Source of the DNA: Eubacteriales bacterium
GTDB lineage: Bacteria; Bacillota; Clostridia; Lachnospirales; Lachnospiraceae
Reading direction: 5' to 3'
DNA: 64,000 nt
Assembly: GCA_030524175.1 (NCBI GenBank)
Contig: JAUNHC010000007.1
Coordinates: 1 to 64,000 of the forward strand
Under the pieces are notes generated by a model that was given only the letters and a program-made list of their open reading frames with translations, was not told where the DNA came from and made no database searches. A program made the translations under genes and the position numbers. Shown one piece after another: positions 18,584-52,825 of the stretch (position 1 is the stretch's first letter; each line of letters begins with the position of its first letter).

Positions 18584-18668
18584 GGGGAATGATTTTATTT
18601 ATGGATATCAGGAATTCTCAGTCAGAGCCGGGTAGCGGAAATGTCTGCTGACGCAGACATCAAAAATC

Positions 18669-18830
18669 ATAAAAGCCGATTGCTCCGCGCTAATGCGCTC
18701 CCGCAATCGCCACCCATATTCGCACTCCGGCCTGTCGGCCTGCTTGCTCATATGGGTCAGCCCGTCCAATGTCTGTACATCTGTGCAAGCAGGCTTGCCC
18801 ATCTGCACAGCCGCAGTCCGGGGCTTTTAT
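18669..18830. repeat. 162-bp element bounded by ATAAAAGCC / GGCTTTTAT
   Basis: The 278-bp gap between the S component and coaX contains a GC-rich, symmetrical stretch bounded by 9-bp inverted ends. The interior has GCAAGCAGGCTTGC (18785-18798) and other partial palindromes, and another perfect hairpin, ATGTCTGC-TGAC-GCAGACAT, lies just before it (18640-18659). Base composition differs from both neighbours. It may be a non-autonomous mobile element or a non-coding RNA; the right end overlaps a possible coaX -10, TATAAT (18828-18833). Confidence 0.45.
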
Positions 18831-18860
18831 AATAAAATATACGGAAGTGAGCAGAAGGAT

Positions 18861-46573: not shown

Positions 46574-46746
46574 CCCTTAGAGCTTGTGGGAATGAATTAT
46601 CAAATATGCAGTGCTGTAAGGCTGAATATGAATGTGTCAGTGCACTGGTAATGGCCGTGTCTGTGTGAGCACACATGGCTGTTCAGAACATGTATGGCAG
46701 CGGAACAGCAATATCCGCCTGGACCAATGAAAGGATGAGTGAAATT

Positions 46747-47349
46747 ATGACAGATATTATATATCGCTATAACCACCAGGTATACTTTAATATTACAAAT
46801 AAATGCCCCTGCAGATGTACCTTCTGCATCCGGAACCATGGAGAGTCTGTGGGAGAGGCAGGAAATCTCTGGTTTGAGAAAGAGCCTTCCCTTGAAGACA
46901 TATTTAAGGCAATTGACGGATATGACTTTGACGGCTGCAGTGAAGTTGTGTTCTGCGGTTACGGAGAGCCGACTATGGAGCTTGAGAAAATGATCGCTGT
47001 GAGCCGTTATATGAGGGAACGGTACCCATTTAAAATCAGGCTGAACACCAATGGTCTCAGCGATTTGATCCATAAGCGTTCCACTGCACAGGAAATCTGC
47101 CAGGCTGTTGATTTTGTTTCAGTAAGCCTGAATATGCCGGATGCCAAGTCTTATAATGAAGTGGTCCGTCCTGCCTACGGGGAAAAAGCCTTTGATGCCA
47201 TGCTTAAGTTTGCGGCCGACTGCAGGAAGTATACGGAGAATGTGCGCTTCACTGTGGTAGATGTCATCGGAGAAGAAAATGTACGGAAAAGCCAGGAACT
47301 GGCAGACTCCCTTGGAATTGCGCTCAGAGTGCGGACTTATTCAGAATAA
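46747..47349 (+). CDS. TatD-associated radical SAM protein
   Basis: 200 aa, short for a radical SAM enzyme. The cluster motif is CPCRCTFC in FNITNKCPCRCTFCIRNHGESVGEAGNLW, followed by SEVVFCGYGEPTME (the GGE-like SAM motif) and KIRLNTNGLSDLI. The family is named for linkage to TatD, but no tatD gene is adjacent here. There is no auxiliary cluster domain, so it may be an activase-like or small-substrate enzyme of unknown function. The ATG at 46747 is chosen by AAAGGATGAG upstream and by the family start MTDIIYRYNHQVYFN. Confidence 0.85.
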   Translation: MTDIIYRYNHQVYFNITNKCPCRCTFCIRNHGESVGEAGNLWFEKEPSLEDIFKAIDGYDFDGCSEVVFCGYGEPTMELEKMIAVSRYMRERYPFKIRLNTNGLSDLIHKRSTAQEICQAVDFVSVSLNMPDAKSYNEVVRPAYGEKAFDAMLKFAADCRKYTENVRFTVVDVIGEENVRKSQELADSLGIALRVRTYSE

Positions 47350-47411: not shown

Positions 47412-48020
47412 AATACCCTGAAGAAACCCGGGAAGTACCTATAAATTTGGGGAGAGTGCCAAATTTATAGGTAAATTAAGCCTGTATAAGTAGGAAATAT
47501 CCTGAAGAAAACTGGGAAGTACCTATAAATTCTGAGGGAATGCCAAATTTATAGGTAAATTAAGCCTGTATAAGTAGGAAATATCCGGAGGAAATCCGGG
47601 AAGTACCTATAAATTCTGGGGGAATGCCGAATTTATATGTATTTTAGGCCTTTATAGGTAGGAAATATTCGGAGGAAATCCGGGAAGTACCTATAAATTC
47701 TGGGGGAATGCCCAATTTATAGGTATTTTAAGCTTGTATAGATAGCAAATGACCAGAATAAGCCCAGGAAGTACCTATAAATTCTGAGGGAGCGCCAAAT
47801 TTATAGGTAAATCAAGCCTGTACAGAGGGCGAGTGACCAGAATAAGCCCAGAAAATACCTATAAATTCAGAGGAAATGCCAATTTTATAGGTAAATCAAG
47901 CATGTATAGAGAACAAGTATCCAGAACAAACCCGGTAAGTACCTATAAATTCAGAAGAAACGCCAATCTTATAGGTAAATCAAACTTATATAGCGAGCAA
48001 ATATCCTGAGGATACCAGGA
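47412..48020. repeat. array of seven 84-bp tandem repeats, each with an inverted repeat
   Basis: Unit starts are exactly 84 bp apart at 47412, 47496, 47580, 47664, 47748, 47832 and 47916, with a partial eighth from 48000. Every unit contains ACCTATAAATT, about 13-14 bases, then AATTTATAGGT, so each can form a hairpin or bind a symmetric protein. Units 1-2, 3-4 and 5-6 are most alike in pairs (for example CGGAGGAAATCCGGG in 3-4, GACCAGAATAAGCCC in 5-6), as expected from stepwise duplication. All six frames are closed within each unit, so it is non-coding. It fills most of the 800-bp gap between the radical SAM gene and the inositol monophosphatase. Confidence 0.95.
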
Positions 48021-48070: not shown

Positions 48071-48106
48071 TATGATAACAGTTCAGGCCTGCCTGAACTG
48101 GTGCAT
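48071..48106 (+). promoter_or_regulatory. -10 element and palindrome upstream of the inositol monophosphatase gene
   Basis: A -10-like TATGAT (48071-48076) is followed at once by the palindrome CAGTTCAGGC-CT-GCCTGAACTG (48079-48100), 10-bp perfect arms. No good -35 is seen. The arrangement matches coaBC (16508-16544) and the lactonase gene (59408-59456). Confidence 0.5.
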
Positions 48107-48148: not shown

Positions 48149-48928
48149 ATGCTGAGAGAGACAGAACAAAGAACAGTGATCGAGATCGTGAGAAGGACAA
48201 AAGCATTGATCAGCCGGGAGCTTGAGAGTGCCAAGGTGACAGTCAAGGGAGCTGCTGATTATGTGACAAATGTAGATTTTGCGGTGCAGAAGTTTCTGAA
48301 AGATGAACTTGAGAAACTTTTTCCTAATATTCCTATGATAGCGGAGGAGAAGGAGAATCATGATCTTTGTGAGGACGGAACATATTGGATTCTTGATCCT
48401 ATTGACGGAACTACCAACCTGATCAACCACTTTGGGATGAGTGCAGTTGCTTTGGCCCTTTATGAGCAGGGGGAGATCACCTTTGGGATTGTGTATAACC
48501 CCTTCCATGAGGAATTGTTTTATGGGGCAAAAGGTGGGGGAGCTTACCTGAATGGAGAGAAGATTTACGTTTCTCATGTTTCTGAGCTGAAGGATGCAGT
48601 GATTTCTTACGGTTCCTCTCCTTATGAGAAGGAAAGAGCAGAGAAATTGTTTCCTGTATTTTACCGTATATTCATGAATAGCGGGGATTTCCGCCGAACC
48701 GGTTCTGCGGAGCTTGATCTGTGCTATATTGCCTGCGGGCGTCAGCACGGATATCTTGAACAGAATCTGAAGCCCTGGGATTATTCCGCCGGAAGCGTTA
48801 TACTTGCGGAAGCAGGCGGTATCGTGAAGGCATGGGGAGGAAAGAAGCTTCCTTATCTTAAGAATGCAGATGTGATAGCCTGCACCGCACAGTTGGAAGA
48901 AGAGTTTACATCTGTGATCGAACAATAA
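48149..48928 (+). CDS. suhB: inositol monophosphatase family protein
   Basis: 259 aa. Mg-dependent sugar-phosphate phosphatase. The three metal-site motifs are present: MIAEEKENHD (Glu), WILDPIDGTTNLINHF (DPIDGTxN), and PWDYSAGSVILAEAGGIV (WDxxAG). The substrate could be inositol phosphate or another sugar phosphate; the symbol is by family only. SD AAGGAG. It has its own promoter-palindrome unit and a GC-rich hairpin behind it. Confidence 0.9.
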   Translation: MLRETEQRTVIEIVRRTKALISRELESAKVTVKGAADYVTNVDFAVQKFLKDELEKLFPNIPMIAEEKENHDLCEDGTYWILDPIDGTTNLINHFGMSAVALALYEQGEITFGIVYNPFHEELFYGAKGGGAYLNGEKIYVSHVSELKDAVISYGSSPYEKERAEKLFPVFYRIFMNSGDFRRTGSAELDLCYIACGRQHGYLEQNLKPWDYSAGSVILAEAGGIVKAWGGKKLPYLKNADVIACTAQLEEEFTSVIEQ

Positions 48929-48947: not shown

Positions 48948-48970
48948 GCCGGGAGATTAATCCTCCCGGC
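48948..48970. terminator. GC-rich hairpin between suhB and the cbiO-cbiK gene
   Basis: Arms GCCGGGAG (48948-48955) and CTCCCGGC (48963-48970) with a 7-base loop, covering the last codons of the convergent minus-strand gene. There is little T-run, so efficiency is uncertain. Confidence 0.5.
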
Positions 48971-50636
48971 TGTTGTCAATTGCCGTCTGTACATGCCTGA
49001 TGAAGATACGGCGGATTCCTTCGTATTCCCCTAAGCCTTTCAGAACAGGAACTACCTGGTAGCTGGCTTTCTGGAACTGGCACATCCAGGATTCGGGGTC
49101 CTCACCTGCCATATCATTCCTGGCATGGTCTCCTGCAACGATCATGAAAGGGGCCAGTACGATTTTCTGCGGCTTAAATGAGTGGATCATGCGCAGCAGG
49201 GACTGCATTGTAGGATAAGCCTCCACTGTACCAAGGAAAATATGGGGGTGTCCCATATCTTTAAAGGTATAATCAAGTGCCGCATAGATGGCATTGGAAA
49301 AATGTGTGGTGCCGTGCCCCATAAGGACCAGTGCGGAATTTTTCTCTATATCTTTGAATTCCTCCGCTATGGCATTGATAACCTCCTCATTGTCCCTGGC
49401 GTCTGTGAGGAGAGGAGTGCCGAAGGCGATGGAATTAAATCTGTTTTGGAAGGAGAGGGCATCCTCCTTCATTAAATCATTTTCAATTCCATTGATCACA
49501 TGGGTAGGCTGTATGATCACATCTGTGATACCGTCAGAGGCCATCTCCTCCATAGCTTCTTTTACATTGTTGATATGAATGCCGTCCCGTTTTTTAATTT
49601 TAGCAATGATCATCTTGCTGGTCCAGGCCCGGTAGATTTTGTACTCCGGAAAAGTGTGTGCAATGTCGTTTTCAATGGCATCAATGGTTACTTTTCTTGT
49701 AGGCTCATAACTGGTGCCGAAGCTGACTACAAGGATGGCTTTGTTCTTCTGGTGATTCATCTGAGGGGTACCTCCATGTCCGTGGTATATTCTTTCTGAT
49801 ACATTTTCGATATATGTTTCTAATTCAGGGAGTGTCCGTGGTACTTTCAAGGTGGTTTTCAGGATTCCCTTAAGGCAGAGACGGTTAAAAAGCTCCAGCA
49901 CGGCAGGCTGTTTCAGATTTGTCTCTGCCAGGGCTGCTTTATTGGAAAAAACCTGGATAGGGTCGCCTTCAGTGAGTACCTGCCCGTCCTTTAAAAGGAA
50001 AACCTGGTCAGCCCAGGAAAAGGCGTAATCCACATCATGAGTAGACATGATCACTGTAATCCCTTTCTGGGTCAGTTCATCCACAATTTTATTGACCATT
50101 ACTGTGTGTCTGGGGTCCAGGGCAGCAGCCGGTTCATCCAGAATGATCACTTCAGGATGCATTACCAGGATGTCGGCAATGGAAACCTGCTTTTTCTGTC
50201 CGCCGCTTAAGGCATGAGTAGGTTTGTGACGGAAAGGTGTGATTTCCAGATGATCAATAACCTCCTCCACTTCTCTTTTTGCTGTTTCTTCTGATACGCC
50301 CAGGTTCAGGATCCCGAAGGAAATTTCCTGATAGACACTGGCGGAAAAGAGCTGGTTGTCAGGATCCTGAAATACGATCCCCACCTTCTGTCTGGCCTCC
50401 AGCAGCCCTTTTCTTGTGTATTCCAGGGGTTTGCCGTCCAGATAAAGGGTTCCTTTCTCCGGCTGGTTCACACCGTTGCAGCAAAGGAAAAAAGTAGATT
50501 TCCCTGAACCGTTGGCCCCCATAAAGGCTACCTTTTTTCCCCGCTGGATTTCCAGGGACAGGCCATTGAGGGAATGACTGTTTCCGTCGTCATAAGAAAA
50601 ATGCAGATCATCTGCTTTGATTATTATATCTTTCAT
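48957..50636 (-). CDS. cbiO-cbiK: fusion of cobalt ABC transporter ATPase CbiO and sirohydrochlorin cobaltochelatase CbiK
   Basis: 559 aa in one uninterrupted frame. Residues 1-285 are CbiO: Walker A GANGSGKST, Q-loop FQDPDNQLF, signature ALSGGQKKQVSIA, Walker B VIILDEPAAALDP. Residues 293-559 are CbiK: AILVVSFGTSYEPTRKVTIDAIE, LMGHGTTHFSNAIYAALD with one active-site His, and APFMIVAGDHARNDMAGEDPESW with the other. The CbiK part begins with Met293 (ATG at 49760), preceded by GGAGG ten bases upstream, so a separate CbiK of 267 aa may also be made. Import of cobalt and its insertion into sirohydrochlorin are thus joined. It overlaps cbiQ by 4 bases. Confidence 0.9.
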   Translation of the reverse strand: MKDIIIKADDLHFSYDDGNSHSLNGLSLEIQRGKKVAFMGANGSGKSTFFLCCNGVNQPEKGTLYLDGKPLEYTRKGLLEARQKVGIVFQDPDNQLFSASVYQEISFGILNLGVSEETAKREVEEVIDHLEITPFRHKPTHALSGGQKKQVSIADILVMHPEVIILDEPAAALDPRHTVMVNKIVDELTQKGITVIMSTHDVDYAFSWADQVFLLKDGQVLTEGDPIQVFSNKAALAETNLKQPAVLELFNRLCLKGILKTTLKVPRTLPELETYIENVSERIYHGHGGTPQMNHQKNKAILVVSFGTSYEPTRKVTIDAIENDIAHTFPEYKIYRAWTSKMIIAKIKKRDGIHINNVKEAMEEMASDGITDVIIQPTHVINGIENDLMKEDALSFQNRFNSIAFGTPLLTDARDNEEVINAIAEEFKDIEKNSALVLMGHGTTHFSNAIYAALDYTFKDMGHPHIFLGTVEAYPTMQSLLRMIHSFKPQKIVLAPFMIVAGDHARNDMAGEDPESWMCQFQKASYQVVPVLKGLGEYEGIRRIFIRHVQTAIDNSRED

Positions 50637-52599: not shown

Positions 52600-52815
52600 G
52601 AATCCTATACACCCAGCCATCGTTCGTAGCTGGCTGCATCCAAAGGGTACAAGGCAGGTCTTCTGGCTCTGGCTTCATCATCCTTGTCCGTCTTCCCGTT
52701 ATCCAGTGACATTATGGAAAGGACTAGGCCATTACAGCGGCGCGACCGCGAGAGATTTTCACTCTGCTTCCCTATTATCTGTATATGGTATACAGACCCT
52801 ATACCTATTTGATTA
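52600..52815 (-). ncRNA. cobalamin riboswitch upstream of cbiMNQ(OK)
   Basis: Read on the minus strand, the canonical blocks appear in order: AGGGAAGCAGAGTGAAAATC (52773-52754), CGCGGTCGCGCCGCTGT (compare CCCGC.ACTGT), TCACTGGA, and GCCAGAAGACCTGCC (52667-52653). A consensus promoter lies just upstream and the terminator at 52537-52572 follows. Together they explain the 533-bp gap between cbiM and hemA. High cobalamin should shut off cobalt import and the fused cobaltochelatase. Confidence 0.92.
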
Positions 52816-52825
52816 TGCAAAAATA

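Follow-up and report, generated by a model that had tools for sequence, protein, structure and literature searches.

A phased array of palindromic sites in a Lachnospiraceae genome and its candidate partner, a PD-(D/E)XK-like protein family

The window analyzed here, a 64,000-nucleotide stretch from a Lachnospiraceae genome, carries an array of seven tandem 84-bp units, with a radical SAM gene upstream and an inositol monophosphatase gene downstream. Each unit holds one palindromic site made of two inverted half-sites:

46675..47349, + strand: upstream neighbor, radical SAM protein (PF04055), listed for context; 88 bp separate its end from the first half-site
47412..47999, no strand: seven-unit 84-bp array from repeat analysis; TRF extends it into a partial eighth unit, to 48006
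47437..47472, no strand: palindromic site 1, ACCTATAA-N20-TTATAGGT, by pattern match
47521..47556, no strand: palindromic site 2, by pattern match
47605..47640, no strand: palindromic site 3, with a degenerate right half-site (TTATATGT), by unit comparison
47689..47724, no strand: palindromic site 4, by pattern match
47773..47808, no strand: palindromic site 5, by pattern match
47857..47892, no strand: palindromic site 6, by pattern match
47941..47976, no strand: palindromic site 7, by unit comparison
48149..48928, + strand: downstream neighbor, inositol monophosphatase family protein (PF00459), listed for context; 173 bp separate the last half-site from its start

An earlier note on this DNA had described seven units of exactly 84 bp, each keeping an inverted repeat, and had suggested repeated duplication as their origin. 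Unit-by-unit comparison bears out all three points. No indel alters the period across the seven units (TRF reports 47412-48006, period 84, 7.1 copies). The inverted repeat is 36 bp long with a core that is exact in six of seven units, the exception being the right half of unit 3; units 6 and 7 differ just inside the core. Neighboring units share 63 to 76 of their 84 bases, and units 1 and 7 share 61, a similarity that marks them plainly as products of tandem duplication. Compared in pairs, the units have an identity of 0.982 over the two 8-bp half-sites vs 0.734 elsewhere. The further statement that every reading frame is stopped inside the unit was not quite right, with one + frame staying open for 73 codons across units 5 to 7. 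Since 84 is a multiple of three, long chance open reading frames run through some other arrays of this genome as well (for example, L019 5286-5858) and may be reported as proteins by gene callers. A 23-bp palindrome, ACAGTTCAGGCCTGCCTGAACTG, lies beside two arrays of the genome (window 48078-48100 and L010 5295-5317) and has no exact match in the other loci compared, save overlapping copies of those two.

The inositol monophosphatase gene was found at 18 loci, the window's own included, in a search of 60 genomes of the genus, and the radical SAM gene is also present at five of the 18. The order of the two genes is like that in the window at three other loci (L255, L259, and L267), while L264 is arranged otherwise. 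The array is absent from these three, where the matched gene ends lie ~300, 21, and 89 bp apart, vs ~800 bp in the window's own genome.

The array is not alone in its genome. A DNA search with it gave 34 matches there, and each of 20 further stretches that we inspected has at least three palindromes of the same design, bringing the total, with the window array, to at least 21 arrays. The pattern ACCYATAA-N14..26-TTATRGGT has 136 matches in this genome and its reversed control has none; among the matches listed, the site is nearly always exactly 36 bp long. Of 95 distances between palindrome centers, 80 are 84.0 bp, eight fall within 83-84.5 bp, and seven are 73-74 bp, that is, about one helical turn less. 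Array flanks are unrelated, with the L014/L018 pair as sole exception, and longer matches are only 66-73% identical; hence no recent transposition is seen in this genome. Several of its arrays lie within ~1 kb of contig ends, and assemblies may break at such arrays. The exact site pattern has no sites in 24 sampled congeners, and one or two sites in five of 16 other genomes of the order.

Searching a collection of species genomes with a pattern of three half-sites listed at least 98 stretches, in Fibrobacter, several Lachnospiraceae, Ruminococcus flavefaciens, Saccharofermentans, an Oscillospiraceae, a Eubacterium, and other Clostridia. Among the matches listed, the array-bearing genomes belong to two phyla and are mostly rumen or gut MAGs. 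The row of sites in Alistipes (L132) is irregular and looks like chance. In Fibrobacter the linkers vary within one array in steps of one turn, with clusters near 63, 74, 85, 95, and 106 bp; the phasing of 83 distances reaches R = 0.943 near 10.9 bp and 0.905 at 10.5 bp, the highest value among 500 uniform controls being 0.41.

Four sets of orthologous Fibrobacter arrays were compared. Half-site positions agree in 559 of 576 comparisons vs 1590 of 1886 at other array positions, a count that is biased towards half-sites in that the loci were fetched by a pattern needing three exact ones. In one set, L126 has 10 extra linker bases, about one turn, the only large linker change in that set; the first palindrome is lost in two of the four members and 1-bp indels occur. 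Decay by random indels together with loss of the inverted repeat, which the earlier note had named as the mark of a neutral minisatellite, is not what these arrays show: orthologous half-sites are kept above the rest, and the large linker change amounts to about one turn, despite the lost palindromes and 1-bp indels of that set. The note had also proposed a transcript of seven identical hairpins, an alternative that we judge improbable. When arms were permuted between arrays of the own genome, pairing outside the half-site was no better in the real arms than in the permuted ones and often worse (positions 0-7 being fixed by the search pattern); in the other two groups an excess of pairing appeared at a few positions outside the half-site. 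Rfam gave no match at the window array. The scarcity of arm pairing and the whole-turn phasing point to duplex sites read by a symmetric protein rather than to hairpin RNA, and the functional form of the arrays is likely duplex DNA.

A candidate for such a protein emerged from the genes at 120 loci. Among 101 multi-member protein clusters in these loci, a nuclease-like family alone has all its members beside arrays (9/9), always with the array at the 5′ side of the gene, in the own genome, in Fibrobacter, and in other Clostridia. Five of the 101 clusters lie next to arrays in more than one group. The one strong alternative is a helicase-like family, of which five of six members, in two orthologue sets, lie beside arrays in both phyla (L037 and L056 in Fibrobacter; L058, L064, and L073 in Lachnospiraceae); its 3′ end always points towards the array, and we take this as placement, not partnership.

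The member in the own genome is the following:

G000 contig C3:1192-1986: single-copy gene of the nuclease-like family, preceded by five palindromes of the window-array motif

Proteins of this family are ~270 residues long with a PD-(D/E)XK-like C-terminal half. E161 and D192 are conserved in 100 of 100 members and E207 in 96. The C-terminal half is α/β, and it matches the C-terminal ~110 residues of the PADLOC candidate PDC-S68 with E values from 1e-25 (own protein) to 2e-23. The class assignment draws on motifs, the PADLOC match, and middling fold scores, and we call the family PD-(D/E)XK-like. No Pfam family scored above its cut-off in the four members scanned, and no relative found in the PDB by sequence was convincing. 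Fold comparison of the N-terminal half, taken within the whole-protein prediction, returned coiled-coil-like rows whose meaning is uncertain.

A seven-member profile matches in 21 of 26 array-bearing genomes, and the five without a match have only one to three sites. A member stands behind ACCTATAA palindromes in 13 of the 26, two of these with only two palindromes; these 13 genomes hold 8-52 ACCTATAA sites and the other 13 hold 1-17. That no family member was seen behind a ACCTATAA array in those other 13 counts against the role we favor for the protein. Other relatives have upstream arrays of the same geometry with other half-sites. The association was followed in a sample of 392 genomes across the window's order that had not been chosen for arrays, of which 73 contain the family at E 1e-30 and only the own genome contains a ACCTATAA array. 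At least three upstream palindromes are present at 20 of 29 new member loci, compared with one of 290 resampled sequences and two of 29 downstream regions. The 106 members collected form 86 clusters at 80% identity; an array lies upstream in 45 of 66 closer clusters (E below 1e-40) and in four of 20 more distant ones, with some 25 to 40 distinct half-sites depending on how variants are lumped. The detector allows one mismatch per arm and does not demand regular spacing, so that a few hits are irregular (eg, L219 and L236); its controls were two-base-block shuffles for the array-bearing genomes and first-order resamples for the order-wide sample. It found no upstream array in 21 of the 66 closer and 16 of the 20 distant clusters, which again counts against the favored role, and the array-less members include L230 in G378, a congener with a near-complete genome. 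Among the 24 congeners, G017 and G020 have family members and G018 a fragment; an upstream array is present at L165 in G020, and the detector found none at the three family loci of G017. One genome, G060, has thirteen family matches; at least four of these are preceded by differing motifs, each with three or more palindromes.

The periods of these upstream arrays fall mostly at 51-53, 62-65, 71-75, 84-85, and 95 bp. A scan of periods from 8 to 16 bp over 49 family clusters is best at 10.55 bp (R = 0.66), with none of 1000 controls of uniform periods as high. This is the helical repeat of B-DNA. Six cluster medians lie between the peaks (58.5, 66, 78.5, 90, 90, and 90.25), each being a median of unlike steps. 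The earlier suggestion of symmetric sites at a fixed helical spacing, which a dimeric protein would bind cooperatively, is well supported by the anatomy: spacing is quantized in whole turns in unrelated species, and there is a candidate binder family.

If an upstream motif is the cognate site of its protein, it should be dispersed in the same genome, and both motifs tested were. GGTAACAA, from L162 in G046, has 40 sites in that genome, five of them at the gene; elsewhere there are 32 sites in G044, two in G043, one in G049, and none in the other 22 genomes. ACGGATAA, from L147 in G057, has 14 sites in that genome, spread over six places of which the gene is one; elsewhere there are two sites in G061, one in G056, and none in the other 23 genomes.

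Loci L142 (G045), L147 (G057), and L149 (G061), from three species, are one orthologous locus, with long flanking matches that are 80-83% identical. Between L142 positions ~1260 and 1850, where the array and the beginning of the gene lie, identity drops to ~0.2-0.7; two other low-identity stretches at the locus lie near 721-948 and 2317-2414. The three arrays agree in position and in their 73-74 bp period but consist of ACCTATAA, GACGGATAA, and CATATAAG, respectively. The proteins of L142 and L147 are 41% identical in residues 1 to 140 and 90% in residues 150 to 264. Array and N-terminal half thus vary jointly, and it is probably this half of the protein that reads the site. We also considered whether proteins with the same motif have more alike N-terminal halves. 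At matched C-terminal identity, N-terminal identity is 0.31 for same-motif pairs (n = 62) vs 0.27 for others (n = 291), a small difference, so that recognition by the N-terminal half is argued mainly from the orthologous locus. In G057, ACCTATAA arrays persist (L080 and L095) at places common to G045 (L057 and L049; 97.8% between L080 and L057). They are apparent orphans, the gene at the shared nuclease locus now having another upstream motif.

Elsewhere arrays do appear to have been copied to new places, most clearly in G047 and Fibrobacter. G047 contains nine full array copies (L044, L045, L054, L076, L092, L093, L103, L113, and L118), mostly between convergent genes, and two more cut by contig ends; they are 81-93% identical over ~250-330 bp. 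Most are bounded by hairpins of the GGGGCTGTCTCA...TGAGACAGCC type that resemble terminators, whereas the gene-side array (L105) and L111 are without such ends, and another element may be the source of the hairpin-like ends. In Fibrobacter, arrays from separate places resemble each other internally, but their surroundings are unrelated from a short distance outwards. Placement is not even. The gaps holding 86 dispersed arrays are 47 co-directional, 29 convergent, and 10 divergent, vs 129, 19, and 65 for 213 other gaps (p 8.5e-8, with a simple gene caller, orthologous arrays counted separately, and arrays adjacent to the nuclease gene or with a missing or overlapping neighbor left out). By group, the convergent excess is greatest in the others (18/44 vs 5/101) and weaker in Fibrobacter (8/27 vs 12/66) and the own genome (3/15 vs 2/46). 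Gene 3′ ends lie closer to dispersed arrays (group medians 72-185 bp) than gene starts do (177-291 bp). This placement fits elements tolerated where they are least harmful, or sites meant to lie between transcription units.

A viral or plasmid vehicle was considered and set aside. In IMG/VR one contig matched the array pattern (L133, one palindrome plus one further half-site) and no relative of the family protein was confirmed; the phage collection has one unannotated 4-kb record with a 34.5% relative of the protein, without an upstream array; plasmids carry the C-terminal part only, in proteins annotated as AAA ATPase or RecD-like helicase. The window array DNA itself has no match in the two collections searched with it.

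From sequence comparison, the PD-(D/E)XK-like protein encoded in this genome very probably binds these arrays. Beyond that, we hold the chance to be about even that the window array is a docking site of this protein within a REPtron-like mobile, probably selfish system. Such a system could work as follows. Protein dimers would read the two half-sites of a palindrome through the N-terminal module, successive dimers would line up along one face of the duplex with cooperative binding, and the array in front of the family gene would autoregulate it. The nuclease domain would act at or near bound arrays and, with the help of host repair, arrays would be copied to new intergenic places, although our assignment of the copying to the nuclease activity itself is tentative and falls somewhat short of even. 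Gene and dispersed arrays together would make up a REPtron-like system, either selfish or semi-domesticated, which would spread by horizontal transfer and change its specificity by exchange of a cassette comprising the array and the N-terminal half.

Four competing explanations were weighed. Arrays that organize or insulate the chromosome, with the protein bridging or wrapping phased sites between transcription units to the benefit of the host, would agree with the enrichment in convergent and depletion in divergent gaps and with the conservation of half-sites in orthologous arrays. We nevertheless consider this unlikely, given the patchy occurrence (no sites in 24 congeners), a motif that differs between close relatives at one locus, the conservation of active-site-like residues, and the presence in one genome of several family members with different motifs. 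A defense or addiction role, in which the nuclease attacks foreign or unprotected DNA and the arrays of its own chromosome are sinks, anti-targets, or marks of self, draws on the match of the C-terminal half to PDC-S68 and to parts of plasmid helicase/ATPase proteins, and on the resemblance that an exchange of recognition halves would have to restriction systems; it is rather improbable, as we noticed no defense gene beside the family gene at nine loci read by eye and the arrays are few for marking a whole genome.

The arrays might instead serve a transcription factor as operators through which it controls the adjacent genes. Phasing is typical of cooperative operators, and the array before the protein's own gene is in promoter position, as autoregulation would have it; but dispersed arrays lie nearer to 3′ ends than to starts and are depleted in divergent gaps, and the neighboring genes differ from array to array, which makes this reading improbable. 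A neutral minisatellite, or an array of transcribed hairpins, with no cognate protein in either case, is hardly credible. In its favor is the plain origin of the units of this array by tandem duplication, but dispersal and phasing led us to reject a plain minisatellite: the same site and phasing recur in different phyla (the search pattern itself fixing three half-sites), and half-site conservation, the little pairing outside the half-sites, and the Rfam result speak against this reading as well. We favor the REPtron-like mobile system, and after it a chromosome-structural or defense use.

In PMC8266576, REPtrons are described as a mostly single-copy TnpA-REP (RAYT) gene beside REP/BIME/REPIN palindromes, whose cognate copies are spread over intergenic regions as inverted pairs and in tandem, enzyme and repeat co-evolving. 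Set against that description, the present system is alike in having one enzyme gene and many dispersed cognate repeats (own genome, G046, and G057), and differs in its enzyme, which is PD-(D/E)XK-like instead of HuH/Y1, in keeping with the Pfam result for four members. REP palindromes are preceded by a conserved tetranucleotide, most often GTAG; the present arrays have no GTAG-like conserved block outside the half-site, the strongest positions being A/T at −4 and −3 in the arrays of the own genome and, in the other groups, G or T at −2. A REP palindrome works as a folded single strand; the half-sites here are probably not hairpin stems, and the duplex sites are phased by whole turns; the array usually lies directly upstream of the gene, and array and recognition half differ together at one locus.

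Other known systems are more distant. Some restriction enzymes have exchangeable target-recognition domains, and the likeness lies in a nuclease-type domain joined to a variable recognition part, but the supposed target here is a phased array on the own chromosome, and reading the neighboring genes by eye brought no modification gene to notice. TnsA of Tn7 gave middling Z scores only, and the N-terminal half of the array-linked protein did not align. The PDC-S68 models are 1202-1273 residues long, all but the C-terminal segment that matches the nuclease half being absent here. The nine full G047 copies of ~300 bp, most with hairpin-like ends, recall MITEs, but the arrays of the own genome share no such ends. 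A CRISPR array has one direct repeat and unique spacers of near-constant length, unlike these inverted 8-10 bp half-sites with tandemly similar bases between them and linkers that vary by whole turns.

A search of a single open-licence library, with preprints outside its scope, found no description of such a system, and within that library the earlier statement that no known element type fits still stands. Because two defining features of REPtrons are absent as well, we rate the system as categorically new, though it would work like a known kind. With somewhat better than even confidence, we see in it a new and widespread class of bacterial protein-DNA system, in which a PD-(D/E)XK-type enzyme whose N-terminal reader can be exchanged is paired with a private motif in phased, dispersed palindrome arrays. 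Many specificities would coexist across at least two phyla of gut and rumen bacteria and would switch by cassette exchange. If true, an enzyme would here be paired with dispersed repeats independently of the HuH-based REP/RAYT systems. The natural series of protein and site pairs, with one specificity difference at the same locus, might allow a recognition code to be read, and since the system predicts a pairing of protein and repeat, a class of unexplained tandem palindromic repeats becomes testable.

Downstream of the array, the window has an open reading frame at 48957-50636 (−) in which an ABC transporter ATPase domain (PF00005) is fused to an anaerobic cobalt chelatase CbiK (PF06180), in surroundings that look like cobalt transport and cobalamin genes. 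A Cobalamin riboswitch (RF00174) is present at 52636-52816 (−; 105 bits) and a Clostridiales-1 RNA (RF01699) at 18667-18832 (−; 110 bits).
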